Shown: piece by piece, positions 19,777-56,978 of the stretch
Numbering within the stretch: the stretch's first letter is position 1
Layout of the letters: each line of letters begins with the position of its first letter
NCBI GenBank assembly: GCA_016182795.1
Contig: JACPFW010000015.1
Span: forward strand, 1 to 64,000
Direction of reading: 5' to 3'
Origin: Gemmatimonadota bacterium
GTDB lineage: Bacteria > Gemmatimonadota > Gemmatimonadetes > Gemmatimonadales > Gemmatimonadaceae
Length of the DNA stretch: 64,000 nucleotides
Translations under genes and position numbers: made by a program
The notes under the pieces: generated by a model
The model's database searches: none
The model's input: the letters and a program-made list of their open reading frames with translations, nothing else
Told to the model about the DNA's origin: nothing

Positions 19777-19902
19777 GTCTCGTTCATCGGCGCATCGCGC
19801 CGATAACCGACTGTGTGTTCGTGCCGCCCCGCTGGCGAACGATTCGCCACGTGGCATCCTCTCTGCGCTTCGAGGTCGCTCGTGTTCCTACCATCCGTGC
19901 CC

Positions 19903-21276: not shown

Positions 21277-21278
21277 TA

Positions 21279-22856
21279 ATGCCAGAAGCCATGGACAAGA
21301 CCGGCGCGTCGGCTCCCGACAAGGGGATCTTTGGTACCAAGCCGCGCAATCACGCTGCACGGCTGCGTGCCGTCGTACTGGGGATCGCGGTGATTGCTGG
21401 GGCCGTCGGCGTCGCGTTCTACGCCGGACGCGGCAAGGCGCCGCCCGCGGAGGGCGCCGGGCATCAGCACGGTGCGGCTGCCGGCGCCGACGCGGCGCAG
21501 CCCGTGATGTTGACATCCGAGCAGGCGCGGCGGATCGGAGTCACGTATGCGGCAGTCGAGCGCAGCGCGCTCGCCCAGGAGATCCGCACAGTGGCCCAGG
21601 TCACGTTCGACGAGACGCGCGTGCGCGCCGTCACGCTGAAGTTCGACGGCTGGATCGACCGCCTCTTCGTGGACTACACCGGTCGCGACGTGCGAGCGGG
21701 AGAACCCCTGGTGTCCACGTATGCCCCGATGCTGTTGAGTGCCGAAGAAGAACTGGCGATTGCGTCCAGGCTCGCGCGGGATGTGGCGGGCACGGACGCG
21801 GCCGCCGCTGCCAATGCGCGGTCGCTCCTGACGGCCGCGCGGCAACGGCTGCTGAACTGGGATGTCCCAGCCGCGGAGGTCGAACGGGTGGAGCGCACCG
21901 GCGAGGCGCAGAAGTCGCTCATGATCCGCGCCCCGTATTCGGGCGTGGTCGTGGACAAGCTGGTCCTGCAGGGACAGCGCGTCATGGCTGGCGACCCGCT
22001 CTTCCGCATCGCCGATCTCTCCGTGGTGTGGGTGGAGGGCGAGGTGTTCGAACGGGATCTGGCGCTGGTGCATGTCGGGGAGGCTGTCGATGTCGAACTG
22101 CAGGCCCTTCCAGGGGTGACGCGGCGCGGGCGCATCGTCTTCCTGCAGCCGACCGTCAACAACGAGACACGCACGGTACGCGTCCGCGTGGAACTCGAGA
22201 ACGCGAGTGGTGCGCTCAAGCCGGGCATGTACGCCACAATTCACATTCGCTCTGCGGGGGGAGCGCCAGTCCTCCACGTCCCACGGTCAGCCATGCTGTC
22301 CACGGGACGCCGCGATCTGGTCTTCGTCCAGCGTCCGGACGGCATGCTCGAGCCGCGCGACGTCGTGCGCGGCATCGCCACCGACGAGCGGGTCGAGGTG
22401 AAGTCAGGACTTCGGATGGGCGAGACGGTCGTTGCCTCGGCCACCTTCCTCGTCGATGCCGAATCCAACCTCGGCTCGATGCTCGGGGGTATGGCCGGCA
22501 TGCCGGGCATGGATATGTCCGCGCCGGGCGGGGGCGCTGCGGGTACGCCGCCGCCGAGTGCGGCCGAGGATCACTCCAAGCATGACATGCCAGGAATGGA
22601 CATGTCCGGCGCGAAGGCGGTGACGCCACAGACGCCAGCCACGAAATCACCGGCCAAGAGGCCGTCGCCCAAGCCGCCGACGTCGGCGCCGGCGATGGAT
22701 CACGCGATGCACGATATGCCGGGCATGGAAATGCCGCCGACAGCCTCGACTCCGACCAAGGCGTCAGGCAAGGCGAAGACGACGTCGCCGGTGAAGCCGA
22801 AGGCGAAGCCCGATACCATGCCGGCGATGCCCGGCATGAAGCACCCCAACGGCTGA
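21279..22856 (+). CDS. CusB-like membrane-fusion protein with Met/His-rich C-terminal tail
   Basis: This 525-aa periplasmic adaptor starts at ATG21279, 9 bases after GGAGG. An N-terminal membrane segment (about 27-50) precedes CusB-type barrel-sandwich and beta-barrel domains (DGWIDRLFVDYTGRDVRAG, IRAPYSGVVVDKLVLQGQ). From about residue 400 a 125-residue tail is built of repeated MPGMDM and MDHAMHDMPGM-type motifs with Lys/Pro linkers. The adaptor links CusC-like and CusA-like proteins. The tail probably captures Cu(I) or Ag(I), replacing a separate CusF. Confidence 0.87.
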   Translation: MPEAMDKTGASAPDKGIFGTKPRNHAARLRAVVLGIAVIAGAVGVAFYAGRGKAPPAEGAGHQHGAAAGADAAQPVMLTSEQARRIGVTYAAVERSALAQEIRTVAQVTFDETRVRAVTLKFDGWIDRLFVDYTGRDVRAGEPLVSTYAPMLLSAEEELAIASRLARDVAGTDAAAAANARSLLTAARQRLLNWDVPAAEVERVERTGEAQKSLMIRAPYSGVVVDKLVLQGQRVMAGDPLFRIADLSVVWVEGEVFERDLALVHVGEAVDVELQALPGVTRRGRIVFLQPTVNNETRTVRVRVELENASGALKPGMYATIHIRSAGGAPVLHVPRSAMLSTGRRDLVFVQRPDGMLEPRDVVRGIATDERVEVKSGLRMGETVVASATFLVDAESNLGSMLGGMAGMPGMDMSAPGGGAAGTPPPSAAEDHSKHDMPGMDMSGAKAVTPQTPATKSPAKRPSPKPPTSAPAMDHAMHDMPGMEMPPTASTPTKASGKAKTTSPVKPKAKPDTMPAMPGMKHPNG

Positions 22857-22867
22857 GGAATTCCCCG

Positions 22868-25800
22868 ATGCTCAAACGGATCATCGCCTGGTCGGCGGGC
22901 AACAAGTTCCTCGTCGTGCTCTTCACGGTGGCGGCGGTTTTGGCGGGGGTCATCGCGGTCCGCCGCACGCCGCTGGAGGCGCTGCCCGACCTCAGCGACG
23001 TGCAAGTCATCGTCCAGACCGAATACAACGAACAGGCACCGCGCATCGTGGAGGATCAGGTCACGTACCCGATTGCCGCCGAGATGCTCAAGGTCCCGGG
23101 CGCGCGCACGGTGCGTGGATACTCGTATTTCGGCGTGTCGTTCGTCTATATCATCTTTGACGACGGCACCGATCTGTACTGGGCGCGCAGTCGCGTGCTC
23201 GAATATCTGAATGGCCTGAAAGGGCGCCTGCCAGAGACGGTCTCCCCGACCCTCGGTCCCGACGCCACCGGGCTTGGCTGGGTGTACCAATACGCGCTCG
23301 AGGATACAACGGGGCGCATGAGCCTCGCCGATCTGCGTTCGCTGCAGGACTGGTACTTGCGCTATCAGTTGACCTCGGTCCCCGGCGTCTCCGAAGTCGC
23401 CACCATCGGCGGCTTTGAGAAGCAGTATCAGGTCGATCTGGATCCGGCGAAGCTGCTTGCGTATCGCATCCCGGTGACACGGGTGATGCAGGCAATCCAG
23501 GGCGCGAATGCGGATGTGGGTGCGATGGTCGTCGAGCTGTCTGAGCGGGAGTACATGGTCCGCGGCCTCGGCTACCTGAAGTCGATCACCGACATCGAGA
23601 ATGTGGTCGTCGGCGCGACCGCCGCCGGCACGCCGATTCGCGTGGCTGAGTTGGGGCAGGTGAACGTGGGTCCGGCGGTGCGCCGCGGCGTGGCCGAGCT
23701 CGACGGCCGCGGCGATGCGGTGGGCGCCATCGTGGTGATGCGGTTCGGGCAGAACGCGTTGACCACGATCGAACGCGTGAAGGACCGCCTCAAGGAGATT
23801 GCGCCGGGACTGCCCCCGGGCGTCGTCGTGCGCCCGGTCTATGATCGCAGCGACCTCATTGAACGCGCCATCGAGACGCTGCGCGGCAAGCTGCTGGAGG
23901 AGAGCCTGGTCGTCGCGCTGGTGTGCATCGTGTTCCTGCTGCACGCGCGGTCGGCGTTGGTGGCCATTCTGACGCTCCCGATCGGCATTCTGATGGCGTT
24001 CGTCGCCATGCGGGGCGTGAAGGTCGGCGCGGACATCATGTCGCTTGGTGGCATCGCCATCGCCATCGGCGCCATGATCGACGCTGCCATTGTGATGATC
24101 GAGAACCTGCACAAGCACCTTGAGCGCCGCATCGCCGCGAAGGAGCGAGCGGCGACCGGCGCCGAAGGGACGTCGCGCTGGCTCGACACCGGCGTGCTGA
24201 CCATTGGCGAACGCTGGCAGGTGGTGGTGGAGGCCGCACAGGAGGTCGGCCCAGCGCTCTTCTTCTCGCTGCTCATCATCACGGTATCGTTCCTCCCCGT
24301 CTTCGCGCTCGAAGGGCAGGAGGGACGTCTCTTCCATCCGCTGGCGTTCACCAAGACGTTCGCGATGGCGGCGTCGAGCCTGCTCTCGGTGACGCTCGTC
24401 CCGGTGACGATGGGGCTCTTTGTCACGGGGCGGATCTTCCGCGAGTCGGCCAATCCCGTGAATCGCGTGCTCATCCGATGGTATCGGCCCATGATCACCT
24501 TCGTCCTGCGTCATCGCTGGCCGGTGGTGGCGGCGTCGGTGGTGGTGGTCATTCTCACCTGGGTGCCGTGGACCCGTATCGGCAGCGAGTTCATGCCGCC
24601 ACTGGGCGAGGGAAGCATTCTCTACATGCCCACGACACTGCCCGGCGTCAGCGTGGCGCGCGCTCGCGAGATTCTGCGCATCCAGGACGAGATTCTCAAG
24701 AAGTTCCCCGAAGTGGATCACGTCTGGGGCAAGGGGGGGCGCGCCAACACGGCAACCGATCCCGCAGGGCTCGACATGTTCGAGACGACGATCACGCTCA
24801 AGCCGCAGAGCGAATGGCGCCCTGGCATGACGTACGACGGGCTCGTGGCCGAAATGGACTCGGCGGTACGCATGCCGGGCGTCACGAACGCGTGGACGAT
24901 GCCGATCAAGGGGCGCATCGACATGCTCGCGACCGGAATCCGCACGCCAGTCGGCATCAAGGTGTTCGGGCCCGACCTCGCGGAGTTGGAGCGCATCGGT
25001 CGCGAGGTCGAGCGGGCGGTGCAGATGGTGCCGGGCACACGCAGCGCGTTCGCCGAGCGCGCGGTCAGTGGCTATTACCTCGACATCGACATCGACCGGC
25101 AGGCCGCGGCGCGCCATGGCCTCAACGTCGGCGACGTGCAGGCGGTCATTGCCACCGCGATCGGCGGCATGACGATCACGCAGACGGTCGAAGGTCGACA
25201 GCGCTTCGGGGTGCGCGTGCGCTACCCGCAGGAACTGCGCGACACCCCCGAGCGGCTTGCCGCTGTGCTCGTGCCCGTGAGTCATTCAACTGCGGGCGGC
25301 GCCTCGTCCGCCGGCATGGGGAGCATGGGTGGCGGAGCTTCTGCGCTCAGCGGCAATGCGGCACAGGTGCCGCTGGGCCAGATCGCCACCATCCGGTCCG
25401 TCGCGGGGCCGATGGTCGTGCGCACGGAGGGCGCCATGCCGACGGCGTGGGTCTACGTGGACGTCGCGGGTCGGGACATTGGCGGCTACGTGGCGGACGC
25501 GCAGCGGGAAGTGGCCGCTCGCGTGACGATGCCTCCGGGGTATTCGCTCGTGTGGAGCGGGCAGTACGAATACATGCAGCGGGCCAAGGAGACCATGAAG
25601 CTGGTGATCCCGGCCACGCTCGCGCTGATCTTCCTGCTGCTCTACTTCAACTTCAACAGCGTCGGCGAGACCCTGATCGTCATGCTCTCGCTCCCCTTCG
25701 CGTTGGTCGGGGGCATCTGGTTCCTCTGGGCACTCAGCTTCAATTGGTCCGTGGCGGTGGCCATTGGCTTCATTGCCTTGGCGGGCGTTGCGGCCGAGAC

Positions 25801-26161
25801 GGGCGTGGTGATGCTCATTTACCTGGATCACGCCTGGGCCGCCCGTTGTGCGGACGGGCGGACGCCGACACTTCGCGACCTGTATGACGCCGTCATGGAA
25901 GGGGCGGTCGAACGCGTACGCCCCAAGATGATGACTGTGACGGCCATCATGGCGGGCCTCCTGCCGATTCTCTGGGGCAATGGCGCGGGCGCCAGCGTGA
26001 TGCGCCGCATCGCCGCGCCCATGATCGGCGGCATGATCTCGAGCACCGTGCTCACGCTGCTGGTCATTCCGGCGATCTACTCTCTGTGGAAGGAGCGGTC
26101 GTTGCAGATGGCGGAGCCGGCGCCAAGCGCCGCCGCGTCCATTGCACCTCTCACCGATTAG
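22868..26161 (+). CDS. cusA: CusA-like heavy-metal RND transporter (Cu/Ag type)
   Basis: This 1097-aa inner-membrane pump has RND organisation: TM1, large periplasmic loop, TM2-6, second loop and TM8-12. The TM4 motif AIGAMIDAAIVMIEN is the monovalent-cation form. CusA-like surroundings of the methionine relay are present (GLDMFETTITLKPQSEWRPG, RIDMLATG). It exports Cu(I)/Ag(I) from the periplasm or cytoplasm through the CusC-like channel, driven by protons. Length is normal. A second loop insertion (SSAGMGSMGGGAS, around residue 815) adds Met and Gly. Confidence 0.93.
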   Translation: MLKRIIAWSAGNKFLVVLFTVAAVLAGVIAVRRTPLEALPDLSDVQVIVQTEYNEQAPRIVEDQVTYPIAAEMLKVPGARTVRGYSYFGVSFVYIIFDDGTDLYWARSRVLEYLNGLKGRLPETVSPTLGPDATGLGWVYQYALEDTTGRMSLADLRSLQDWYLRYQLTSVPGVSEVATIGGFEKQYQVDLDPAKLLAYRIPVTRVMQAIQGANADVGAMVVELSEREYMVRGLGYLKSITDIENVVVGATAAGTPIRVAELGQVNVGPAVRRGVAELDGRGDAVGAIVVMRFGQNALTTIERVKDRLKEIAPGLPPGVVVRPVYDRSDLIERAIETLRGKLLEESLVVALVCIVFLLHARSALVAILTLPIGILMAFVAMRGVKVGADIMSLGGIAIAIGAMIDAAIVMIENLHKHLERRIAAKERAATGAEGTSRWLDTGVLTIGERWQVVVEAAQEVGPALFFSLLIITVSFLPVFALEGQEGRLFHPLAFTKTFAMAASSLLSVTLVPVTMGLFVTGRIFRESANPVNRVLIRWYRPMITFVLRHRWPVVAASVVVVILTWVPWTRIGSEFMPPLGEGSILYMPTTLPGVSVARAREILRIQDEILKKFPEVDHVWGKGGRANTATDPAGLDMFETTITLKPQSEWRPGMTYDGLVAEMDSAVRMPGVTNAWTMPIKGRIDMLATGIRTPVGIKVFGPDLAELERIGREVERAVQMVPGTRSAFAERAVSGYYLDIDIDRQAAARHGLNVGDVQAVIATAIGGMTITQTVEGRQRFGVRVRYPQELRDTPERLAAVLVPVSHSTAGGASSAGMGSMGGGASALSGNAAQVPLGQIATIRSVAGPMVVRTEGAMPTAWVYVDVAGRDIGGYVADAQREVAARVTMPPGYSLVWSGQYEYMQRAKETMKLVIPATLALIFLLLYFNFNSVGETLIVMLSLPFALVGGIWFLWALSFNWSVAVAIGFIALAGVAAETGVVMLIYLDHAWAARCADGRTPTLRDLYDAVMEGAVERVRPKMMTVTAIMAGLLPILWGNGAGASVMRRIAAPMIGGMISSTVLTLLVIPAIYSLWKERSLQMAEPAPSAAASIAPLTD

Positions 26162-26786: not shown

Positions 26787-27335
26787 ATGTCGCCACACGC
26801 AGGACGGGATCCGAACGGCAAACCACCGCGGAGGCGGCCAAGCATTCTCGATGATCCCGAGAAGGGTCTCACGCGTGGCCAGTGGCTCTCGCTGGTCGGC
26901 GGTGGAATCGTGCTTGTCGCGTCGGTGATGCTGCTTGGGCGTGTGGGCCGCGGATGGCGACCCGGGGTCACGCCGATGGTGATGTACGCCTCGGAGAACT
27001 GCGAGTGCTGTCGCCTGTGGGTCGCGCATCTCGAGGCCAACGGGTATCGCGTCCGCATCAAGTACACGTCGAACCTGGCGAGACGGAAGGACGCACTGGG
27101 TGTGCCGCCGACCCTGCGCGCCTGTCATACCGCCGAAGTACAGGGCGTGGTAGTCGAAGGGCACGTGCCCGCGGACGTCCTGACACGCTTCCTCTCGCAG
27201 AGGTCCGGGGAACGCGGCCTCGCGGTGCCCGACATGCCGGGGGGATCTCCCGGCATGGAGGTGATCCGGAAGGAACCGTACGACGTCTTCGCGTTTCAGC
27301 GCGACGGGACCTCACGCGTGTACGCTCACATTTGA
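26787..27335 (+). CDS. DUF411 family metal-binding protein (copy 1)
   Basis: This 182-aa protein starts behind AGGAGGG. One membrane segment (about 33-50) anchors a DUF411 domain with CECC, then RACHTAEV, then VVEGHVPADV. The conserved Cys and His residues fit metal binding. DUF411 proteins occur in copper and other metal resistance operons, with incompletely defined function. It lies between the CusCBA-like set and the thioredoxin gene. A second copy is at 31820-32386. Confidence 0.88.
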   Translation: MSPHAGRDPNGKPPRRRPSILDDPEKGLTRGQWLSLVGGGIVLVASVMLLGRVGRGWRPGVTPMVMYASENCECCRLWVAHLEANGYRVRIKYTSNLARRKDALGVPPTLRACHTAEVQGVVVEGHVPADVLTRFLSQRSGERGLAVPDMPGGSPGMEVIRKEPYDVFAFQRDGTSRVYAHI

Positions 27336-31650: not shown

Positions 31651-31819
31651 GCGCTGTTCGTTCCGGTTCGTGCAACGTCTCCAGTGGAGCCTCGATGCTC
31701 GTGCGCTCCCGCCTCCGCACACCGCGCGGCCCGAACATGGCGCTCGGGCCACAACGGCACCCCTATCACCGCCAACTCGCTCGTCGAGTCGACGAGCGCG
31801 CCACTCAGAGGAACCGATC

Positions 31820-32386
31820 ATGAGCTGCCATCAAATGCGACCCACGACGCCCTACCCGCCGCGCAAGCAGAAGCCGGCGCCCACCAGTGAACCCGCGAAG
31901 CGGATCTCTCGCCGCGCTTGGATCGGTCTCGCGACGGGCGGCACCGTGATTTCGCTCGTCGGCGCGCGGTGGGCGCAGGGGCGTTTTCCCTGGGAGCCTG
32001 ATCCCGCCGCGACGCCCGTTGACGTCTTCGCCTCACCGACTTGCGACTGCTGCCGCGAATGGATGCGACACATGGGCAAGAATGGTTTCGCCGTGACGAA
32101 GCACCTGATGGACGACGTCACCGTGAAGAAGTCCGAGCTTCACATTCCGCAGGACTTGTGGTCGTGCCACACGGCCGTCGTTGGCGGCTATGCGATCGAA
32201 GGTCACGTGCCGGCAGACCTGATTCAGCGAGTTCTGACCGAACGGCCCGCGATCGTCGGCCTGGCGGCACCTGGCATGCCAAACGGCGCGCCAGGGATGG
32301 AGGGACCGACGCAGGACCGGTACGAGATCATCGCCTTCACACGGACCGGCGCGACCGAAGTGTACGCCGTGCGGGGGCTCGTCTGA
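31820..32386 (+). CDS. DUF411 family metal-binding protein (copy 2), Tat-type signal
   Basis: This 188-aa protein starts at ATG31820. KRISRRAWIGLATGG is a twin-arginine-type signal or anchor. The DUF411 domain shows SPTCDCC, WSCHTAVV and IEGHVPADLI, matching the copy at 26787-27335 in every key Cys and His. Export by Tat would imply a prefolded, possibly metal-loaded protein. It lies between the cytochrome genes and the PCYCGC gene. Confidence 0.87.
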   Translation: MSCHQMRPTTPYPPRKQKPAPTSEPAKRISRRAWIGLATGGTVISLVGARWAQGRFPWEPDPAATPVDVFASPTCDCCREWMRHMGKNGFAVTKHLMDDVTVKKSELHIPQDLWSCHTAVVGGYAIEGHVPADLIQRVLTERPAIVGLAAPGMPNGAPGMEGPTQDRYEIIAFTRTGATEVYAVRGLV

Positions 32387-33020: not shown

Positions 33021-33482
33021 ATGCAGCTTCTTCGTCGGCGTCGCTCGTTGATCGCTCTCGCGTTCGTCGCGGGCACCATCGCAATGGCGCCTTTCCCTCA
33101 GCGCCGCGAGCGCCCCGCCGCCCGCCTGGTGCGCATCGAGGCGAGCCAATTTGCGTATTCGCCTGGCACGATCGCCGTGAACCTCGGCGACACGGTCACG
33201 CTCGAACTCGTGTCGAAAGACGTCGTGCACGGGCTGTTCGTCGATGGGTACGAGCAGCGGATCTCTGCTGACCCCGGGCAGACGGCCGCAATGTCCTTCG
33301 TCGCGAACCGGCCGGGGATGTTCCGGTTGCGATGCTCGGTCACCTGCGGTGCGCTGCATCCGTTCATGGTCGGCCAGTTGCATGTGGGACGGAACGCACT
33401 GGGTTGGCGGGCGATGAGCCTCGCGCTCCTCGCGGCGCTCTGCGGTCTCTGGCTCCTGCCGCTGGGAGGGCGACCGACATGA
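33021..33482 (+). CDS. Membrane-anchored CuA-type cupredoxin
   Basis: This 153-aa protein has an N-terminal signal-anchor, a cupredoxin domain and a C-terminal membrane helix (ALLAALCGLWLLPLG). Ligands fit a binuclear CuA site: H70 (VVHGLFVDG), C105 and C109 (RCSVTC), H113 and M116 (ALHPFM). It is related to the soluble domain of cytochrome oxidase subunit II but lacks the two-helix hairpin. No catalytic subunit is nearby. The stop overlaps the start of the polyferredoxin gene. Confidence 0.83.
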   Translation: MQLLRRRRSLIALAFVAGTIAMAPFPQRRERPAARLVRIEASQFAYSPGTIAVNLGDTVTLELVSKDVVHGLFVDGYEQRISADPGQTAAMSFVANRPGMFRLRCSVTCGALHPFMVGQLHVGRNALGWRAMSLALLAALCGLWLLPLGGRPT

Positions 33483-34852
33483 CGCCTCGTGATCGCCGGA
33501 ACCTTCTCGGGATACCGGTCGTCAAGGCCCTGCTGCACAGTCGTTGGCCACAGTTAGTGGCCCGTCTTCTCGCGCTTGCGGGGCTACTGGTCGCGATTCT
33601 CGCCGCCGTGGTCGGTTCCCCGGTTGGCAGCCACAACATCGGCATCGTGCTGGTATGGATTGCGTGGTGGGCGCTGTTGATCCTGCTCATCCTCCCAGTC
33701 TTCGGCCGCGGGTGGTGCGCGGTGTGTCCCATTCCCATGCCCGCCGAGTGGCTGCAGCATGGCGCCGTGCTCGGACCGGGAGGCCCTGGCATCGGACTCA
33801 AGCGACGCATGCCGGCGGCGCTGCGGAACATCTGGCTCCAGAACGTCGCCTTCACCGGACTCGCGCTGTGCAGCGCCGTCGTGCTGACGCAACCGCGCGT
33901 GACGGGATGGGTCCTTCTCCTCTGCCTGCTCGTCGCGCTCGGGATGGGGCTGGTGTACGAACGGCGGTCGTTCTGCCGCTACGTGTGTCCGGTGGGCGGC
34001 TTCATCGGCCTCTACGCGCAACTGGCGCCCGTCGGACTTCGCGTGCGGGACACGTCGCGGTGTGCCTCGCATACGGAGAAGACGTGCTTCGTCGGCAGCG
34101 CCGATGGCTTCGGGTGTCCGTGGATGCTGTTTCCTGGCGCCGTCGTGAAGAACACGTATTGCGGTCTGTGCATGGAATGCGTGCGCACGTGCCCGCATGA
34201 CAACATCGTCCTCAACCTGCGCCCCGTTGGCGCGGATCTCTGCCAACCCCGGGGTCGTCGACTGGACGAGGCGTTCAAGGCGTTCATCATGCTGGGCGCC
34301 GCGATGGTCTACTCTGCCGTCATGCTCGGTCCGTGGGGTGCGCTCAAGGCGGCCGCTTACGAGATCGGCTCACAGGCCTGGCTCCAATACGCGGTGAGTT
34401 TCGTGAGTCTCGTGTATGGTGTTCTGCCGGCTCTCTTTCTGCTGTCGGTGGCGGTCGGCAAGCGGCTGGCCGGCTCCACGGTGCCGCTGCGAGCCTTGTT
34501 CGTCGCCCTCTCGTACGCGCTGGTGCCCCTGGGTCTCGCCGCGTGGATCGCGTTCAGTCTGTCGTTTGTCTTCGCCAGCATTTCGTACCTGTGGGCGACG
34601 GTGAGCGATCCGTTGGGTGCGGGGTGGAACCTGTTCGGGACCGCGCACCTCGGTTGGCAGCCTTACGTGAGCGGTGGCGTGCCGTATCTGCAGGCGGCGG
34701 TCCTGCTCGTCGGGCTGACATGGGCAAGCGTCACCGCGCGTCGCATCTCCGCTGAGCAGCATGCGCCGCGAGTCGCGCCGCGCCTGGCCCTGCCCGTGGC
34801 GGGTTTCTGTCTCGTTGTCACGGTGGCCCTCATGAAACTGCTGATTATATGA
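33479..34852 (+). CDS. NapH/NosR-like membrane polyferredoxin
   Basis: This 457-aa protein has about nine membrane helices. It carries the twin CxxxCP motifs typical of NosR/NapH/CcoG membrane modules (GWCAVCPIPMP, CRYVCPVGG) and two partial ferredoxin clusters (CGLCMECVRTCP). It is expected to pass electrons between quinol or cytoplasmic donors and periplasmic proteins through Fe-S centres. ATG33479 overlaps the CuA stop, and its own stop overlaps the next CuA gene, so the three are translationally coupled. Confidence 0.85.
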   Translation: MTPRDRRNLLGIPVVKALLHSRWPQLVARLLALAGLLVAILAAVVGSPVGSHNIGIVLVWIAWWALLILLILPVFGRGWCAVCPIPMPAEWLQHGAVLGPGGPGIGLKRRMPAALRNIWLQNVAFTGLALCSAVVLTQPRVTGWVLLLCLLVALGMGLVYERRSFCRYVCPVGGFIGLYAQLAPVGLRVRDTSRCASHTEKTCFVGSADGFGCPWMLFPGAVVKNTYCGLCMECVRTCPHDNIVLNLRPVGADLCQPRGRRLDEAFKAFIMLGAAMVYSAVMLGPWGALKAAAYEIGSQAWLQYAVSFVSLVYGVLPALFLLSVAVGKRLAGSTVPLRALFVALSYALVPLGLAAWIAFSLSFVFASISYLWATVSDPLGAGWNLFGTAHLGWQPYVSGGVPYLQAAVLLVGLTWASVTARRISAEQHAPRVAPRLALPVAGFCLVVTVALMKLLII

Positions 34853-35853
34853 ACCGCGAACTTGCTGCGCGCCTTCTGGCCTCGCTCGTCCTGCTCGGGG
34901 TCCCCGTAGGCGTGCTGCTCGCGCGAAAAGTCACTACCCAGCACGTGGCCATCCACGGCGTGATGGCCGACAACGGCGGCTGGACGCCGGGCACCATCGA
35001 GGCGAGAGTCGGAGAGCCGCTCACGTTGCATCTGACGTCAGATGACGTGATCCATGGATTTGCCATCGGACAGAGCGAGCACCCGGCGGTTGACGTGATG
35101 CCGGGCGCGTGGACGAAGACGAAGCTCGTCTTTGCGCGACCGGGCAGGTACACGTTCTATTGCACCCGCTGGTGCGGTTCGAACCACTGGCGGATGCGCG
35201 GCACTATCGAGGTCAGCGGGCCGGGTGCGGAGGTGGCGACCGATTCGGCTCCGCTCTTCGTACGGCTCAAATTAGATCTCGATGCCCCCCATCCCAGTGG
35301 TGTCGTGCCCACGCGAATGCCCGTTGCGGCGCGTGGCACGGAGGCTGCGATGCCGTTTGCGTGGTCGCTCGACGAATACCGATCCCGTAGTCCGGTCGCG
35401 CTCTTTCGGACCATGCGCGAGCGCGCTCCCAAGTCCGTCACAGATTCCCGAGTATGGGACGTCGTGGCCACCGTATGGCGTGACAAGACCACCGCCGAGC
35501 GTCTCGCAGTAGGTCGAAAGCTCTATCGCGAGAACTGCGCAGCCTGCCATGGCGAGTCAGGGCGCGGGAATGGGGTCATGGCGGCCGCGCTCGCTGCGTC
35601 AGCAGGGACCGCGATGGCGGGCATGACAGGCCATACCACCGCCTCGCCGACCGACTTCACCGATGCTGCGACCATGCTTGGCGCAAGTCCCGCCTTCCTG
35701 CACGGGAAGATCATCCGTGGCGGTATGGGGACCGGGATGCCGTACTGGGGGCCGATCTTCAATGACACCCAAGTGTGGGCGCTGGTGGACTACCTGTGGA
35801 CGTTTCAGTTCGCCTACGAGTGGACCGCGCCGCCCTCGTCCGCATCACCCTGA
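34849..35853 (+). CDS. CuA cupredoxin-cytochrome c fusion
   Basis: This 334-aa protein has an N-terminal membrane helix, then a CuA domain with H69, C105, C109, H113 and M116 (YCTRWCGSNHWRM), and a C-terminal cytochrome c domain with CAACH (C230, C233, H234) and methionine-ligand region GGMGTGMPYWG. It resembles caa3-type oxidase subunit II but has only one anchor and no oxidase subunit I in the cluster. It could act as a shuttle between cytochrome, CuA and the polyferredoxin. ATG overlaps the preceding stop. Confidence 0.85.
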   Translation: MNRELAARLLASLVLLGVPVGVLLARKVTTQHVAIHGVMADNGGWTPGTIEARVGEPLTLHLTSDDVIHGFAIGQSEHPAVDVMPGAWTKTKLVFARPGRYTFYCTRWCGSNHWRMRGTIEVSGPGAEVATDSAPLFVRLKLDLDAPHPSGVVPTRMPVAARGTEAAMPFAWSLDEYRSRSPVALFRTMRERAPKSVTDSRVWDVVATVWRDKTTAERLAVGRKLYRENCAACHGESGRGNGVMAAALAASAGTAMAGMTGHTTASPTDFTDAATMLGASPAFLHGKIIRGGMGTGMPYWGPIFNDTQVWALVDYLWTFQFAYEWTAPPSSASP

Positions 35854-35865
35854 GGAGTTGCCCAC

Positions 35866-36357
35866 ATGAACGTACTCCTATCGTCGGAGCCTACCCCGCC
35901 GCGCCCTCGTCGGAGGCGAACTTTGCAACTGATCGGCGCACTCCTGCTGCTGACGCTCGGCGGATTGGTGGCGATACGTGCCCATCGCTCCGCTGCGTCC
36001 CCGGTGACCGCTACGAAGCATGAAGGTGCGCCCGAGCTGGTGACGGACAAGGCGAAGGTCGACTTCGGCGTGGTCCCCTTCGGCAAATGGATTGAGGCAA
36101 CGTTCGAGGTCCAGAACGCCGGCCGGGAGACACTGGAGTTCACGGAATCGCCGTACATCGAGGTCGTGAAGGGGTGTTGCCCGCCGTCCCCTCAACTCGG
36201 CAAGCGGTCCTTGAAGTCCGGAGAGCGCACCAGCCTTTCGGTGAAGTTCATGATGTACCGGGGCATGGGTGGCGTGCACGACTTCCGCGTGCATCTGCGC
36301 ACCAATGATCCCGCTCGTCCTGACCAGACGGTGCAGATCCTGTCGGACTGGAGATAG
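35866..36357 (+). CDS. DUF1573 family exported protein
   Basis: This 163-aa protein has an N-terminal membrane helix (residues 23-40), then a DUF1573/Ig-like domain: VDFGVVPFGKWIEATFEV, then VVKGCCPPSP and VHLRTNDPARPDQTV. The GCCPP pair is the conserved Cys region of this family. The function is unknown, and it often occurs with cytochrome and copper genes. It closes the redox cluster 12 bp after the CuA-cytochrome gene. Confidence 0.82.
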   Translation: MNVLLSSEPTPPRPRRRRTLQLIGALLLLTLGGLVAIRAHRSAASPVTATKHEGAPELVTDKAKVDFGVVPFGKWIEATFEVQNAGRETLEFTESPYIEVVKGCCPPSPQLGKRSLKSGERTSLSVKFMMYRGMGGVHDFRVHLRTNDPARPDQTVQILSDWR

Positions 36358-36577: not shown

Positions 36578-38131
36578 ATGAGCGACCGAATCGTGCCCCC
36601 GCGTCGAGGATGGGGCCTCGGATTGCGGCTCGGGCTACTCACCACCCTGGTGGTCACCGGGGTGATGGGCGTCGTATCCGGCACGCAGCTCGCGGGGGAG
36701 TTGCGCGCTGAGTTGCGCGAACGGCGGGCGCGACTCGGCGAGTCCTTGGCGCCCCTCGTGTCGGATCTGCAGAGCGCCGTCACGCGCGAGGATGTCCGTG
36801 TCGCCGTCGAGCGATTCCACGCGTCGTATGTGGCCCAAGGGCACGCCTACCATAACCTCGTCGTCGTCGACTCCTCCGGTCGTATCGCCATCGATACGCG
36901 CGACGAAGGCCGGCATGGCGCGCGGGACCTGTTGACGGCCGCGGTGCCGCTCGTCTCGCCCGCGTTTGGTCCTCAGCTGGTAGAGCTGCACATCACAGAA
37001 GACAGTTTTGACTTCTCCGCAGAGCGTGCACGACGGTGGAGGGACTGGGCGATTCACGTGGGCGTTACGGCGTTGTTGATCCTCGTCCTGTTGTTCTTCG
37101 TGATCCGTCGCGAAGTGACGGGGCCGATCGAGCGTCTCCTCGGAGGCGTCCGGAAGATGGAGCTGGGATACTGGGACGACATGCCAAGTCCTGGTGGCGC
37201 CTGGGAGGTTCGCTGGCTCGGCTGGCGCTTCGGGGCCCTCGGCCTGGAGTTGAGCCGGACGGTGGAACACCTCGTCGCCGCGCAACGCCGTGCGTATGCC
37301 GCGGAGCGCGACACGCACACCGAGTCGGCGACACCCGAGCCGGGAGACTCACCGAGGCCCCAGTCGCCGGATTCTCAGCGTTCGGCTGAAGCCATCGCGT
37401 GGCTCCGGGCGCAATTGGAGCGTCTCCGTTCCGCCGACCCCGGAGACTCGGCGACCCGCGCCTTGGCGGAGAGCATCCTGGATCGACACGCGACGGCGGC
37501 GGAGCGACTCGGCCTGTCTGAACTGCGCGTGAGTCTCGAAGACGCGGCCCTACGCGTGCTCGACCCCGACGAGTTCCTCGCCATCTCCCGGCGCATCGAG
37601 GCGGAGCGCCCACGACTCGATGCACTCGCCCAAGCACGCGAAACTCAGATCCGGCGCGCCTTGGCACTCCAAGGGGTCCCTGTTGTCGAAATCTCCCACC
37701 GGGTAAAGCATCCCGCGGGCACCTTGAAGAAGATGCACGCCAAGAACCTGACGTTCGAGCAAGTCCACGACCTCGTCGCCCTGCGAATTCTTGTGCCCAC
37801 CGAGACGGACTGCTACCACGCGCTTCGCGTGGTTCACGATCTCCACGTCCCCATCGCTGGTCGTTTCAAGGACTACATCGCCCAGCCCAAGACCAACGGC
37901 TATCGCGGCCTCCACGCCAATGTGCGTGACACGAGCGGCGCGCCCTTCGAAGTGCAGATCCGCTCGCTCGCCATGCATCGGCACGCCGAGCAGGGGCCTG
38001 CGGCCTATGCGGACTACAAGCATGCCACCCGCATCGAGGCGAACCAGTGGCGCGTGGAACCGTGGAAGCGCGTCTTGGCGCTGTTCGGCCACAGCCGGCG
38101 GCACCGCGCGAACGAAGGAGACGCCAGCTAA
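36578..38131 (+). CDS. Membrane sensor-HAMP-RelA-type (p)ppGpp synthetase
   Basis: This 517-aa protein has TM1 (about 13-33), a periplasmic sensor region (34-158), TM2 (159-176) and a HAMP-like segment from 177 (IRREVTGPIERLLGG). After a linker it matches the RelA/SpoT region between hydrolase and synthetase (RLGLSELRVSLEDAALRVL). The synthetase domain (375-485) follows, with DLVALR (D398), RFKDYIAQPKTNGYRGLH and FEVQIR (E458). No HD hydrolase, TGS or ACT domain is present. ATG36578 begins the first membrane segment. It suggests a receptor making (p)ppGpp on an external cue. Confidence 0.85.
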   Translation: MSDRIVPPRRGWGLGLRLGLLTTLVVTGVMGVVSGTQLAGELRAELRERRARLGESLAPLVSDLQSAVTREDVRVAVERFHASYVAQGHAYHNLVVVDSSGRIAIDTRDEGRHGARDLLTAAVPLVSPAFGPQLVELHITEDSFDFSAERARRWRDWAIHVGVTALLILVLLFFVIRREVTGPIERLLGGVRKMELGYWDDMPSPGGAWEVRWLGWRFGALGLELSRTVEHLVAAQRRAYAAERDTHTESATPEPGDSPRPQSPDSQRSAEAIAWLRAQLERLRSADPGDSATRALAESILDRHATAAERLGLSELRVSLEDAALRVLDPDEFLAISRRIEAERPRLDALAQARETQIRRALALQGVPVVEISHRVKHPAGTLKKMHAKNLTFEQVHDLVALRILVPTETDCYHALRVVHDLHVPIAGRFKDYIAQPKTNGYRGLHANVRDTSGAPFEVQIRSLAMHRHAEQGPAAYADYKHATRIEANQWRVEPWKRVLALFGHSRRHRANEGDAS

Positions 38132-42494: not shown

Positions 42495-42525
42495 GAGGCA
42501 AATGGTCGGTGTCAGTGGCGTGGAG

Positions 42526-42544
42526 GCTTTACGAGCGATAAAAC
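42526..42544. promoter_or_regulatory. Weak BlaI-type operator candidate before blaI
   Basis: GCTTTACGAGCGATAAAAC shares the TTTA/TAAA arms and 9+1+9 spacing with the palindrome at 44657 but has about eight arm mismatches. It lies in the gap upstream of the BlaI-type gene where autoregulation would be expected. Confidence 0.22.
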
Positions 42545-42605
42545 TTCGCATAGATTTCAGCAGATCGGCAAGGCAAGCACGCCGCTCCAACGCAGAGGCG
42601 CACGC

Positions 42606-44124: not shown

Positions 44125-44622
44125 ATGCGAAGCTGCCGAAGAAATCTCGTTCTCGTCGCCATCTCCCTGCTCGGAGGCGCACCGCTGGCCGCACAGGCGT
44201 CGCGCCTGTCTGCGACCGATGACGCCTCGCGCGTTGCGTCGGTGCTCCGCGCCGTTTTCGACGCGCAGGAGCAGGGCAATCTGGCCGCCCTCGACACGCT
44301 CTATGCCGGCGACAGCCTGATCATCATCGAAGGCACTGGAGTGAATCGCGGTTGGGCCGACTACCGCGATCATCATCTGGCCCCAGAGCTCCGCGAGATG
44401 AAGAACCTCGCGTATCGACCGGCCGACCTCGAGGTTCACGTCGCGGGGAACATCGCCTGGGTGAGCTTTCGCTACAGTCTGCATGCAAACCTGAACGATC
44501 GCGCCGTCGATTCGGTCGGGCGCGGCACCGCCATCCTCGAGCGCCAAGCGACGCGGTGGGTGGTCCGCCATGTGCAAACGGCGGGCCGCGCGCGCCGGGT
44601 GTCGGACCCGCCGGCGATCTAG
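44125..44622 (+). CDS. Exported NTF2/SnoaL-like (DUF4440-type) protein
   Basis: This 165-aa protein has a signal peptide (ending APLAAQA) and an NTF2-like cone fold: VLRAVFDAQEQGNLAALDTL, then WADYRDHHLAPEL and VAGNIAWVSFRYSLH, ending WVVRHVQTAGRA. Such domains without catalytic residues often bind small ligands. The paired His in the middle (YRDHHL) could bind metal. It is 8 bp after the M56 gene and before CopC, so it is probably part of the copper operon. Confidence 0.76.
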   Translation: MRSCRRNLVLVAISLLGGAPLAAQASRLSATDDASRVASVLRAVFDAQEQGNLAALDTLYAGDSLIIIEGTGVNRGWADYRDHHLAPELREMKNLAYRPADLEVHVAGNIAWVSFRYSLHANLNDRAVDSVGRGTAILERQATRWVVRHVQTAGRARRVSDPPAI

Positions 44623-44656
44623 GACCTCCACGTACGTCGTGACCCCTTGCGCGCGC

Positions 44657-44675
44657 ATTTTACACAGTGTAAAAT
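44657..44675. promoter_or_regulatory. Perfect 19-bp palindromic operator before copC
   Basis: ATTTTACACAGTGTAAAAT has perfect 9-bp arms around one base. It contains TACA and TGTA halves as in BlaI/MecI/CopY operators. It lies 38 bp upstream of the CopC start and downstream of the blaI-type repressor operon. Related 19-mers occur at 17726 and 29153. Confidence 0.7.
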
Positions 44676-44713
44676 CATCTGTCCGTGCCCCCTTGCCGAT
44701 GGAGTTCTCCCCA

Positions 44714-45112
44714 ATGCGCTTCGCTCTCGTGCTAATGCTGCTCGCCACGACCGTCCAGCCGCTCTGGGCGCACCCTCGCCTGGTGCGCTCCGCACCGGTG
44801 GCCGATGGCCGTCTCTCCGCGGCTCCCGTGGCGGTATCGCTCACCTTCAATGAACCAGTCAACGCTGCGCTGAGCCGTGTCACCCTGCTCGATGCGCAGC
44901 AGCGTCCCGTGCTCCTCGCACCTCTGGCGGTAGACCCGAAGGATCCGGCGACCGTCGTCGCCCGCGTCACCGGGGCGCTGCGGCCGGGGCGCTATACGGT
45001 ACAATGGCAGGCGGCTGGCGATGACGGGCATCCCGTGCGCGGCACCTTTGCATTTACCATCACGGCGAGTCCCGACAAGCCGGGCGACGCGGCGCCCGGC
45101 CCTCGGCAGTGA
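44714..45112 (+). CDS. copC: CopC-like periplasmic copper-binding protein
   Basis: This 132-aa protein starts at ATG44714, 7 bases after GGAGTT (an ATG at 44699 is possible). The signal peptide ends at LWAHPRLVRSAP, where the first mature His is the classic CopC copper ligand. SLTFNEPVNAALSRV and DGHPVRGTFAFTI complete the CopC beta-sandwich, including the second conserved His. It delivers Cu(II) to the adjacent CopD protein. GTG of copD overlaps its stop. Confidence 0.9.
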   Translation: MRFALVLMLLATTVQPLWAHPRLVRSAPVADGRLSAAPVAVSLTFNEPVNAALSRVTLLDAQQRPVLLAPLAVDPKDPATVVARVTGALRPGRYTVQWQAAGDDGHPVRGTFAFTITASPDKPGDAAPGPRQ

Positions 45113-46110
45113 GTCTCGTTGCGGAGACGACATTCGGCGTGGAGTCGCCGGCATACGTCGCCATTCGCTGGGCGCAGTCAGTCGGCGTGTCGCTGCTGGT
45201 CGGCACGGCAATCGTACGATGGCTGATTCTACCGCGCGCCAAACGCGCGCTGGCGCAGCGTTCACGAGAATCCGCTGCGGCGGGAGTCGAGATTCCAGCA
45301 ATTCCGGACGATGACCTGATGCGCCGGGTGGAGCGACTCGCAGCACCCCTCGCGCTGGCGCTGTTCGTGGTGGAAGTCGCTCGATTGGCCGCGCAGTATC
45401 ATGCGGTTGCGGGGGGCGACGCCTTTGAGGTGGCGATCCTTCGTGCCCTAGTCTTCTCGTCACATTGGGGCGGGGCGTGGATCGCCACACTGCTCGGCGC
45501 GGCGCTCATACTCGCGGCGACACGTCTGCGCGTGCGCGATGCGCGGTGGGTCGAAGCCGTGTTTTGGTCGGCGCTCGTCGTAACCGCTGCCGGCGTCGCG
45601 TCAGGCGGACATGCGGCCACCGGTGGTTGGCAAGCCGAGGCCCTTCAGACGTTGCACGTTCTCGCGGCGGGTGCGTGGATTGGCAGCTTGGCTGTCGTGG
45701 TGCTGGTCGTCATACCACCGCTCGCGCGCTTGGGAACCGCGACGGCGCATGCCACGGTTGCCGCCGTGATCGCCGCGTTCAGCCCCGTCGCGCTCGTCGC
45801 GGGCGCGCTGCTGCTCGCGACCGGAGTCAGCGCGGCCGCGCGTGCGCTCGGGAGTTTCGACGCGCTCTGGCTGAGCACCTATGGTCGTACGCTCATCGTG
45901 AAGCTGGCGCTTCTGGGTGTGACTGCCGGAACGGGCGCCTACAACTGGCGACGCGTCCTTCCGACGCTGGGGACTGCTGCGGGGAGCACAGCGCGCCTGC
46001 GCCGGTCAAGCGCGGTGGAACTGGTGGCCGCGCTGGCCATTCTGGTCGTGACGGCGGTGCTGGTTGCTACGCCGTTGCCCGCCGAGCTGTCCGGCGCCGT
46101 GCACCCGTAG
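45109..46110 (+). CDS. copD: CopD-family copper transport membrane protein
   Basis: This 333-aa protein has about eight membrane helices and the CopD-type pattern LHVLAAGAWIGSLAVVVLV with His in a membrane helix, plus SGGHAATGG. GTG45109 overlaps the copC stop, giving the standard copCD operon. It is thought to bring copper into the cytoplasm. It lies directly after copC and before a methyltransferase gene. Confidence 0.87.
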   Translation: MSLVAETTFGVESPAYVAIRWAQSVGVSLLVGTAIVRWLILPRAKRALAQRSRESAAAGVEIPAIPDDDLMRRVERLAAPLALALFVVEVARLAAQYHAVAGGDAFEVAILRALVFSSHWGGAWIATLLGAALILAATRLRVRDARWVEAVFWSALVVTAAGVASGGHAATGGWQAEALQTLHVLAAGAWIGSLAVVVLVVIPPLARLGTATAHATVAAVIAAFSPVALVAGALLLATGVSAAARALGSFDALWLSTYGRTLIVKLALLGVTAGTGAYNWRRVLPTLGTAAGSTARLRRSSAVELVAALAILVVTAVLVATPLPAELSGAVHP

Positions 46111-47036: not shown

Positions 47037-47309
47037 TGTGCTCTGGGCCCGTATGGCGCGGCCGACGTGGCGCGCGTACGGTTCATCAAGGCAGCGCAAG
47101 GCCTGGGTTTCAGCCTCGACGAAGTCGCCGAACTGCTGCACCTGGACGATGGCGCGCACTGCGATGACGCTCGGGTGGCGGCCGAGACAAAACTGCACGA
47201 GGTCGGTGCGAAACTTGCCAGCTTGCGACGCATCGAGCGCGCACTCGCGCGCTTGGTCACGAGATGTCAGGCGAGCATCGGGCGCGTGCATTGTCCGTTG
47301 ATTGAAGCA
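47037..47309 (+). pseudogene. merR-family regulator remnant
   Basis: The frame reads GPYGAADVARVRFIKAAQ, LGFSLDEVAELLHLDD, then a long helix and LVTRCQASIGRVHCPLIEA, the central and C-terminal part of MerR-family metal regulators, including Cys residues at ligand positions. The N-terminal helix-turn-helix is absent in this frame and the end runs into unrelated sequence. A truncated, probably inactive regulator is the best reading. Confidence 0.65.
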
Positions 47310-47321
47310 TGTGTTGTATGC

Positions 47322-47768
47322 GTTCCCCAGCGCGCGCACCGCGCCGATGATTGGCGCATTGTCCCTGAGAAGACCGGAAAGACTGATGTGGTGGCCTTGC
47401 GCACCGTTGGAAACGAGAAGCCACGCGCCTGCACCTGCCATTCGACCGCTGGTCCTAAGTGCCGTCCCTTGAAGTCCGGCCGCGTAACGATCTGCAAAGT
47501 ATGTAGCTCCTGCGCGGGCAAGCACCGTAGCAGCTCGAGCACCTCGTGTACCGTAGACCGCAACTAGTCCCGCGCCTGTCAGTGCAAACGCATCCGATCC
47601 TAGCGCCATCCCTGCATCGACTGCCGCCGCAGAACAAGCCGTTCCGTTCCCGAGAAGGTCGCGCTCGGGTGGCAAGGCACCTGAGCTGCTCCGTCTACGG
47701 ACGGCACGCTCGTTTCGCTCACAGTCCTCACGTTCTATGGCGGGCAGATCCTTGCTGCATCCCAACAA
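47322..47768 (-). CDS. Doubtful hypothetical frame
   Basis: This minus-strand frame encodes an Ala/Gly-rich but protein-like segment (AAVDAGMALGSDAFALTGAG, ATYFADRYAAGLQ). No start signal or family is identified, and it opposes the merR remnant. It could be a fragment of a larger secreted repeat protein. Coding status is uncertain. Confidence 0.25.
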
Positions 47769-51509: not shown

Positions 51510-52757
51510 ATGATGTTCCCGTTGCTGGGCGTCGTGACCCTGCTACAGATGCAGGACACGCTCGCCCTCACACTCGATCAGGCCGCGGCGCGTGCCGGCG
51601 CCGTCAGTCCGCGCATACTGGCCGCGGAAGGCGCGATACGCGCGCCCCGTGGCCTGCGCGAAGAATCGCGCTGGCCGTTTCCCAGTAACCCCACGCTCTC
51701 GCTCGGACGCACCGCCCGACGGTCACCGCCTGCCACGACACAAGACCGCGCGTGGGAAGTCAGTCAGGAGGTTGACGTCGCCGGGGCGTGGGTCTACCGC
51801 ACGCGAGCGGCGACGTCGCTCATCCAGGCATTCGAGGCGCGCGCGGACGATGCGCGACGGCTGGTGGCCCTCGAAGCGCGTCTCGCGTATCTCGATGTGG
51901 CCATCGCGGAACGCCGCGCCGCACTGACCGACTCGGCGGCCGCGTTCGCCGAACACCTGTCCGAGCAGGCCAGCCGACAGCTCGCCGCTGGCGAGATCAA
52001 TCGGCTCGAACGCAACGCCGCCGCACTGGAAGCGGCTCGTGCGCGCAGCGCGGCCGATCGGTTCGGCGCGGAGGCAACCGCGGCACGCGCTGAGTTGGCC
52101 CGCGTGCTGGGACTGCCGCGCGACACGGTGCCGCGCACGACGGAGCTCCCGGCCATGCCCTCGCTGGTGTGGCCTGGCGATTCGGTGCTGTTGCAGCTCG
52201 CGCGCTCACGCCGCCCGGACCTGCGCGCCGGCGAACTGCTCCGTCGAAGCGCCGATCGCTCGGTCACGGCGGCCGCGGTGGCGCGCGCACCGAGTCTTGT
52301 CGCCGCAGCCTTCGGTGGGCGCGAGTCGGGCACCGATCGTCTGCGCGGCGTGCAGCTCGGGGTCAGCATTCCGCTCTTCCGCCGTCAGCAAGCCGCGCTC
52401 GGCGAAGCGGAGGCGGCGCGCGTGGCCGCCGATGCCGACCTGACGGCGACCGATCGGGCGGTCATGGCCGAAGTGCTCGCGGCGAGTGCGCGCTTTCGCC
52501 GCGCGGTGATCTCCGAACGCCGTTTTGCAAGCGAGGTGCTTCGCGCGGCGACGGAGAACGTGACGCTTACCGAGCGTGCGCTGACTGAGGGCGAGGCGAG
52601 CCTCACCGACGTGCTCGTGCTGCGCGGCACGGCGGTGGCCGCGCAGTTGGAGTACCTCGAGGTCCTGCGCGAGGCCGCCACGGCGTGGTTCGATCTCGCC
52701 GCGGCGCTGGCCAGCGAGCCAGCGGCGCTCGCCCAACTACTCAACCGAGGTCGCTGA
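51510..52757 (+). CDS. CzcC-like outer-membrane efflux protein (TolC family)
   Basis: This 415-aa protein has the OEP repeat pattern: ALTLDQAAARAGAVSPRIL near the N-terminus, long amphipathic helices, QLGVSIPLFRRQQAALGEA and a C-terminal EASLTDVLVLRGTAVAAQLEY split by helix breaks. It forms the outer-membrane channel for the Czc-type pump encoded next. The N-terminal signal is short. It ends 2 bp before the membrane-fusion gene. Confidence 0.84.
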   Translation: MMFPLLGVVTLLQMQDTLALTLDQAAARAGAVSPRILAAEGAIRAPRGLREESRWPFPSNPTLSLGRTARRSPPATTQDRAWEVSQEVDVAGAWVYRTRAATSLIQAFEARADDARRLVALEARLAYLDVAIAERRAALTDSAAAFAEHLSEQASRQLAAGEINRLERNAAALEAARARSAADRFGAEATAARAELARVLGLPRDTVPRTTELPAMPSLVWPGDSVLLQLARSRRPDLRAGELLRRSADRSVTAAAVARAPSLVAAAFGGRESGTDRLRGVQLGVSIPLFRRQQAALGEAEAARVAADADLTATDRAVMAEVLAASARFRRAVISERRFASEVLRAATENVTLTERALTEGEASLTDVLVLRGTAVAAQLEYLEVLREAATAWFDLAAALASEPAALAQLLNRGR

Positions 52758-52758
52758 A

Positions 52759-53891
52759 ATGCAAGGATATCGTGTGGTTCTTCTCACCCTAGGCCTCCTT
52801 GCGGGCGCCGCCTGCGGATCGCCCGAGGCGAGCAGCGAGCAGCGGCCCGCCGCGGCATCAGACGTTGTCGTGTTGGACACCGCACAGATGCGCTCGGCGG
52901 CGATCGCGGTGCAACCCGTCGGCGCGTTGCCCGCCGACACCATCTCGCTGACGGGCACCGTGGGCTTCGATGGCGCGCGCGTGAGTCATGTGGCATCGCG
53001 CATTCAGGGACGGATCCGCAGGGTCTACGCGGACATCGGCACGCATGTGTCGCGCGGTGACACGCTGGCCGTGCTGGACAGCCCGGAGCTGGGCGCGGCG
53101 CAAGCCCGCTGGGCACAGGCGCGCGTATCGCGCGACGTCGCCCGGCGCAACTTCGACCGGGCCGAACGCCTGTATCGCGACGGCATCGTGTCGGAGCGAC
53201 GACGCCTCGAAGCCGAGGCGACGTTGCGCGAGCAGGACGCTAGCCTCACGGCCGCGCTCCAGACCCTTTCCGCGCTGGGGGCGTCGCCTGACTCCGGGGG
53301 CTCCGGGCTCTTCGTGATCCGCGCTCCGCTCGACGGCGAGGTGGTGGAGAAGCACGCGACCGAAGGCGAAGTGGTCGGACCGGAGGAGAACCTTTTCATC
53401 GTCGGTGAGCTCAACCGGGTCTGGCTGCTGCTGGATCTGTACGAAACCGACCTGCGTCGTCTGCGCGTCGGCGTTCCCGCACGAGTGGTTGCGGATGCGT
53501 ATCCGCAGACGCCGTTCTTCGCGCGGGTCGGGCTGATAAGTTCGGTCATCGACACGGTCAGCCGGACCGTCAAGGTGCGCGTGGAAATCTCCAATGAGCA
53601 GCACCTGCTCAAACCCGGCATGTTCGCGCGGGCGGGACTCGCACTGGCCGCGCCCTCCGGTGCGCTCGGGGTGCCGCATGCCGCGGTGCAATCGCTTGGC
53701 GGCCGCGACGTCGTCTTCGTGCCGGCGGGTGCGGGACGGTACCGCGCGACGCCGGTGGAACTTGGACCGCCGCGCGCCGGCGGATGGCTCGAGGTGCGCT
53801 CGGGGCTGCAGGTCGGCGATTCCGTGGTCGTCAGCGGCGCGTTCGCGCTCAAGACGCACCTGCTGCAGTCAGCCAACGAGGGCTCCGACCG

Positions 53892-53895
<4 letters not shown>
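52759..53895 (+). CDS. CzcB-like membrane-fusion lipoprotein
   Basis: This 378-aa protein has a lipoprotein-type signal (GLLAGAACGSP), barrel-sandwich and beta-barrel domains (RIQGRIRRVYADIGTHVSRG, IRAPLDGEVVEKHATEG) and helical hairpins between. It is the periplasmic adaptor of a tripartite RND pump. The stop overlaps the CzcA-like start by 4 bp. Unlike the CusB-like protein of this window it has no Met/His tail, which agrees with divalent-metal specificity. Confidence 0.86.

Positions 53896-56974
<3,079 letters not shown>

Positions 56975-56978
<4 letters not shown>

Follow-up and report, generated by a model that had tools for sequence, protein, structure and literature searches.

The window analysed here, a stretch of 64,000 nucleotides from a Gemmatimonadota genome (contig JACPFW010000015.1), contains an intact open frame, with coordinates and frame verified, that encodes a putative receptor-type RSH protein among genes for metal resistance and electron transfer (Table 1). 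The frame stays open in the 5' direction as far as a GTG at 36269, but the ATG at 36578 is preferred because three close homologues begin at the same position. A promoter scan found none. In a comparison among five close homologues, in which some synonymous distances to the Stagnimonas member (L020) are saturated, dN/dS was below 1 in TM1, the sensor, the TM2-HAMP region and the synthetase, and highest in the linker (residues 242-270). Since the frame is confirmed, homologues exist and dN/dS lies below 1 outside the linker, we regard the gene as real and under selection. A chance frame or a misassembly was rejected, given this dN/dS pattern and homologues located on separate contigs.

Table 1. 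Predicted features of the receptor-type RSH gene and of its surroundings in the window.
Feature	Coordinates	Strand	Evidence
Receptor-type RSH gene, 517 aa	36578..38131	+	Pfam, NCBIfam, solved-structure matches; 11 further full-length homologues aligned
TM1, residues ~14-37	36617..36688	+	Hydropathy; helix 14-55 in model
External sensor, residues ~38-157, helix-helix-helix and four strands predicted	36689..37048	+	Models, Foldseek
TM2, residues ~158-178	37049..37111	+	Hydropathy; helix 144-195 in models
HAMP-like segment, residues ~178-236	37109..37285	+	hhalign, Pfam in members and weak relatives
Variable Pro/Ser-rich linker, residues ~242-265	37301..37372	+	pLDDT, dN/dS, alignment variability
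Helices matching the pre-synthetase segment of long Rel, residues ~268-364	37379..37669	+	NCBIfam, Rel_Seq alignment, model
RelA_SpoT synthetase domain, residues 374-483	37697..38026	+	PF04607; catalytic positions
Heavy-metal RND efflux set: OEP, HlyD_D23 adaptor, CusA/CzcA-family pump (over cut-off)	19813..26161	+	
DUF411 gene	26787..27335	+	
DUF411 gene	31670..32386	+	
Membrane 4Fe-4S protein (Fer4_5; NapH-like below cut-off), kept in two relatives	33332..34852	+	
COX2-type CuA domain fused to cytochrome c	34849..35853	+	
DUF1573 / HYDIN-like Ig domain protein, directly upstream, kept in two relatives	35866..36357	+	
CopC and CopD genes	44570..46110	+	
MerR-family DNA-binding protein	47067..47567	+	
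Second metal RND set (CusA/CzcA family) and heavy-metal P-type ATPase	51510..59223	+	

By its predicted gene content the window is a heavy-metal island, the P-type ATPase of which scores over the cadmium-family cut-off and just under that of the copper family. The 4Fe-4S and CuA-cytochrome c pair (33332-35853, +) resembles, below cut-off, models of N2O reductase and oxidase subunit II, and possibly constitutes a copper-linked electron-transfer unit. An HD_5 (HD-GYP type) protein, encoded at 27575-28954 (+) and kept beside the DUF411 genes in the relatives L023 and L024, represents a second second-messenger gene in the cluster. The product of 41229-43112 (-) has no Pfam match, and its homologues lie at most about 7 kb from the receptor gene in L024, L082 and L079, the last belonging to another phylum and displaying 65% identity; this protein is a travelling companion of the receptor gene. 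At about 42600-44116 (+) the end of a frame resembling BlaI-type repressors is followed by a gene for an M56 (BlaR1-like) peptidase, likewise in L024, and an M56 peptidase gene is also found in L082.

The catalytic half of the protein is clearly related to the RelA/SpoT enzymes. Pfam assigns RelA_SpoT (PF04607) to residues 374-483 with 114.8 bits against a cut-off of 27 (E 3.3e-33), which places the protein in the RSH superfamily, defined by a SYNTH and/or an HD domain. In the whole protein this is the only Pfam domain reported; HD, active or degenerate, as well as TGS and ACT were not found, so the features of long RSHs are missing, and 34 residues remain after the synthetase. The NCBIfam RelA/SpoT model covers residues 296-487 with 183 bits, a score far below the full-length cut-off of 499, which is expected when the other RelA/SpoT domains are lacking. 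The best solved relatives are the Rel catalytic fragments 1vj7, 8acu and 6yxa, and the score against 1vj7 (123.9 bits, versus 28.2 for YwaC) is nearer to long RSHs than to small synthetases. The match to Rel_Seq (1vj7) begins only at residue 163 of that enzyme and, consequently, the HD domain proper is considered absent and the pre-synthetase helices retained; in the same alignment D398, E458, R375, K377, Y442 and H446 are equivalent to Rel_Seq 264, 323, 241, 243, 308 and 312, respectively. These results bear out the earlier note on this DNA, which had located D398 and E458 in synthetase motifs, likened the preceding region to long RelA/SpoT enzymes and reported that HD, TGS and ACT parts are absent.

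Across the 12 full-length members aligned, 14 of the 17 tabulated active-site positions are invariant, including the equivalents of Rel_Seq R241, K243, K251, D264, K304, Y308, H312 and E323. K431 is kept in 11 of the 12 and R429 in nine, position 381 is occupied by glycine or serine, and the RFKD motif, which in the window protein we take to be of the bifunctional type (RXKD label), is incomplete in four members. Judged by these residues the active site is intact, and the predicted synthetase would be expected to be active and to produce (p)ppGpp. The genome itself encodes two RelA_SpoT proteins, and its sole HD_4 match is the long Rel, with the sequence HDVIEDT.

The N-terminal half was described in the earlier note as two membrane helices around an external domain, followed by a HAMP-like segment, and this description holds. 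Two strong hydropathy peaks (residues 15-33 and 158-176) flank an external part of about 120 residues and are present in 12/12 aligned members, with one weaker extra peak in L021 and L081. A cytoplasmic small synthetase was rejected on account of these peaks. Pfam reports no HAMP domain in the window protein itself. The HAMP segment of the family, compared by hhalign with nine HAMP domains of the same genome, gave a probability of 93 (E 3.4e-7, the value for a single comparison), and a narrower profile of six rows (A2) a probability of 37 (E 3.6e-4). Likewise, Pfam matched HAMP in three of the 12 members (best 6.7e-6) and in every one of the 18 examined loci with weak similarity to the N-terminal profile (10 from one search with an N-terminal profile and 8/15 from another); of these loci, 11 encode histidine kinases, six diguanylate cyclases and one a chemoreceptor. 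Hence the receptor half is, in terms of sequence relationship, a module shared with histidine kinases, chemoreceptors and diguanylate cyclases, in which HAMP has diverged. Three of the kinases (L101, L105 and L106, HisKA_3 proteins of 477 aa) match the family across the entire receptor half, with LapD_MoxY_N at its place, and are candidates for the source or the sister of the sensor module.

Mean pLDDT of the AlphaFold2 model built from five sequences was 67 over the full protein; when the N-terminal part was modelled by itself it was 76. The prediction comprises a long helix (13-56), two shorter ones (58-66 and 70-86), strands at 92-97, 103-106, 118-126 and 134-142, and a helix (144-195) that would cross the membrane and enter a HAMP-like pair; block means of pLDDT are mostly 80-95 in the sensor, dipping near residues 110-120, and about 49-66 in the HAMP region. 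In a Foldseek search with the N-terminal model the first rank was taken by a modelled WalK-YycH complex (E 6.6e-5) and ranks 2-5 by the silver-bound sensor domain of CusS (four chains of 5ku5; E 0.009-0.017, probability 0.99-1.00, TM-score on the target 0.45-0.48), which provides the best crystal matches, albeit weak; further PAS/Cache sensors came next, together with unrelated chains, all with higher E values. For a gene from copper islands, the second place of CusS in a search with a predicted fold is suggestive. A relationship to CusS was not supported by sequence: hhalign found no significant similarity to the sensor (probability 0.4, E 0.14), and the N-terminal profile gave two matches among solved structures by sequence, both at chance level (E 0.85 and 1.1). 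The metal-ligand histidines of CusS/CopS are placed at the dimer interface in the accessible part of PMC7763554; at the matching positions of the sensor, located by manual placing only, they are not evident. A metal site formed by H81, H89 and H92 was rejected as a feature of the family, the three residues being retained together only in a branch of six members, with two of them in L076 and L078.

Between the receptor and the catalytic half lies a segment with pLDDT below 50 (residues 233-267) and a linker that is variable in the alignment of 12 members, in which L232, V233 and A235, at the end of the HAMP region, are invariant. In long Rel, the pre-synthetase helices that are retained here connect the hydrolase and the synthetase. 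Because about 25 Pro-rich, variable residues modelled with low confidence separate HAMP from the catalytic helices, the sequence does not suggest a rigid coiled-coil coupling as in histidine kinases. A conserved HAMP end followed by a disordered, variable linker makes control through the dimer state or through docking more likely than a continuous coiled coil.

Members of this family are scattered. Profile and protein searches, which scored the best few candidates per genome and so yield lower bounds, recovered full-length members in at least 3/60 close genomes (own genome included), at least 4/395 genomes of Gemmatimonadota, at least 1/321 in the class of a Stagnimonas MAG and at least 1/398 in its phylum (the same genome), and at least 6/329 genomes (seven loci) in the phylum of an Oligoflexia MAG; other matches in the phylum- and class-wide searches were weak (47 bits or less). 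A contig scan with exact-peptide seeds, which reach close relatives only, yielded four loci of roughly full length, of which two were already known from the genome searches. The 12 distinct members aligned come from Gemmatimonadota, the Stagnimonas MAG and the phylum of the Oligoflexia MAG, and this patchy distribution across phyla suggests horizontal transfer. No full-length relative was found in viral contigs, plasmids or phages; the N-terminal part had no match in IMG/VR or plasmids, and phage matches span the synthetase only. One genome (G832) carries two divergent receptor-type synthetases with differing sensor sequences (L076 and L077), and another (G873) has at least four RelA_SpoT matches in a PF04607 inventory of 235 genomes, of which two were examined, L078 and a long Rel truncated where its contig stops (L115).

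A phylogeny against RSH proteins, proposed in the earlier note, was computed from the catalytic part and, as an unrooted tree, split the 12 receptor-type members from 21 long RSHs, E. coli RelA, E. coli SpoT and the Rel of the same genome among them, at 100/100. In a previous tree, with the divergent small synthetase L022 (end branch 7.5) as outgroup, the receptor rows required two changes and were separated from all other rows in 18% of bootstraps; the support of 100/100 was obtained after L022 had been dropped. A third RelA_SpoT frame of the Oligoflexia MAG (L039) gave no match to the catalytic profile and is absent from the tree, and this frame, within L117, had no match to the N-terminal profile either (E 0.34).

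All five close members with readable flanks (the window, L023, L024, L082 and Stagnimonas L020/L114) lie in copper or heavy-metal islands, a context that the earlier note does not mention; L021 is on a contig of 3,480 bases, too short to reveal its surroundings. BLAST identified the DUF411, HD-domain, membrane 4Fe-4S and DUF1573-like neighbours as retained in L023 and L024, and in L024 a copper P-type ATPase (over cut-off) adjoins and faces the receptor gene. L082 is accompanied by a P-type ATPase, a multicopper oxidase and an outer-membrane efflux protein, and in Stagnimonas CopK is encoded directly upstream, with a second CopK, CusF, DUF305, a plastocyanin-type protein and DUF411 nearby. CopC is found near the receptor gene in two of the five cases. 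DUF411 has 10 matches in 4/11 genomes, eight of which, among them the sole match in Stagnimonas, lie at most 10 kb from the receptor gene, and two on other contigs (G000:C45 and G001:C21); in 14 control genomes there was none. Among divergent members, L079 adjoins MerR, MerC and a thioredoxin-like protein, and no metal genes were found among the few neighbours scanned of four of the five others (L076, L077, L080 and L081, but not L078). The metal linkage thus characterises one branch together with L079, amounting to perhaps three independent lineages; three of the five metal-linked genomes belong to one genus and metal genes tend to cluster, so that independent cases are few.

The RSH table of PMC3153485 comprises 30 subgroups, none described there with a transmembrane or HAMP part, and the words "transmembrane" and "HAMP" are absent from the text of that paper, in agreement with the earlier note, which judged the architecture to fall outside the standard RSH classes. 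A full-text literature search, covering few subscription journals or preprints, retrieved no receptor-type alarmone synthetase, and "HAMP domain" combined with "alarmone synthetase" gave 0 papers. The protein joins a known enzyme to a known receptor module, in a combination not found described in the literature searched. With long RSHs (Rel, RelA, SpoT) it shares a homologous synthetase, the preceding helices and RFKD, but instead of HD, TGS and ACT it carries a membrane receptor half, and it forms a separate branch. Small alarmone synthetases (RelP, RelQ, RelV and others, as listed in PMC3153485) likewise contain a synthetase without a hydrolase; in contrast to a synthetase alone, the window protein keeps the long-RSH helices and adds two TM segments, a sensor and HAMP. 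The exported alarmone synthetases of PMC12691689, according to its accessible part, have in common with it an RSH-type synthetase and an N-terminal hydrophobic segment, whereas here a second TM and HAMP precede the synthetase and are predicted to keep it in the cytoplasm, as opposed to signal-peptide export. HAMP sensor kinases, chemoreceptors and diguanylate cyclases display the same order of TM, PAS/Cache-like domain, TM and HAMP, and their N-terminal halves are statistically related to ours, but the output in the present case is an alarmone synthetase. CusS/CopS kinases also combine a two-TM receptor, located beside CusCBA-type efflux genes, with a sensor fold to which the one predicted here is weakly similar; they differ in that the window protein offers no response regulator route, the metal ligands known from these kinases are not evident in it and the sequence similarity is not significant.

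Alarmone synthesis is understood as a response to signals from inside the cell, namely starved ribosomes, partner proteins and transcriptional control. Based on what the sequences support, that is the gene, the topology signals, the HAMP relationship, the intact active site, selection, a separate clade and the context, we hypothesize that the window protein is probably a transmembrane alarmone synthetase of the one-component kind, gated by metal in the periplasm or by envelope stress. More tentatively, the family might represent a new, metal-gated RSH class, in which a periplasmic sensor of the copper/silver type directly drives (p)ppGpp synthesis and which has spread between phyla with metal-resistance islands; at that same tentative level, such a class could act without ribosome, tRNA or two-component relay.

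The same receptor-type synthetase could have an input other than metal, namely some general signal from the envelope, from redox state or from a small molecule, and be part of the cargo of metal islands. We consider this less likely in view of the copper or metal genes around 5/5 close members whose flanks are readable and which represent two phyla, although it would accommodate the divergent members that keep the architecture without visible metal neighbours, the HisKA_3 kinases that share the full receptor half with LapD_MoxY_N, a domain not tied to metals in its Pfam description, the electron-transfer proteins upstream in three genomes and the fact that known metal ligands are not evident. 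A product other than (p)ppGpp, for instance (p)ppApp, or the pyrophosphorylation of another acceptor as by some toxic relatives, is improbable: RSH synthetase domains with different products do exist (accessible part of PMC12691689), but the nearest relatives in sequence are guanosine-specific long Rel enzymes and the equivalents of Y308, H312 and K304 are kept in 12/12 members. Alarmone synthetase domains are also known to act as toxins (accessible part of PMC8832971), yet a membrane-bound toxin or phage-defence synthetase resembling toxSAS seems highly improbable here: the neighbours that could be identified belong to metal and electron-transfer functions, none of those scanned, in a non-systematic look for antitoxins, was recognised as one, the N-terminal part is without a match in IMG/VR or plasmids, and phage matches cover the synthetase alone. 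That the domain is a dead relic serving as a nucleotide-binding module, as the glycine or serine at position 381 and the incomplete RFKD motifs might indicate, is hardly credible with D398, E458 and 12 further tabulated positions invariant throughout and a low dN/dS in the synthetase.

In the metal- or stress-gated synthetase that we favour, both termini would be cytoplasmic and the PAS/Cache-like domain periplasmic, with TM2 and the diverged HAMP relaying the state of the sensor to the RelA/SpoT synthetase, which would occupy the position held in other receptors by a kinase, cyclase or chemotaxis output. Because genes for copper and heavy-metal resistance accompany this gene, the likeliest input in its branch would be a metal of the copper/silver type or envelope stress caused by metal. 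The outside signal would alter the sensor dimer, TM2 and HAMP would follow, and the synthetase would be released or rearranged; to cross the flexible linker, a change in dimer state or the release or holding of the synthetase is likelier than a rigid coiled coil, and the retained Rel helices may be the joint exploited by the receptor. We infer that triggering would increase (p)ppGpp and retard growth during induction of the efflux genes, and that the cell's one long Rel, with its HD hydrolase retained, would remove the alarmone.

If this is true, an outside signal would reach the stringent response within one protein, as happens with c-di-GMP, and an alarmone would be added as a second-messenger output to those known for HAMP receptors. 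The metal context supplies a concrete candidate input: a metal or envelope stress met on the outside may trigger the (p)ppGpp alarm within the cell directly.
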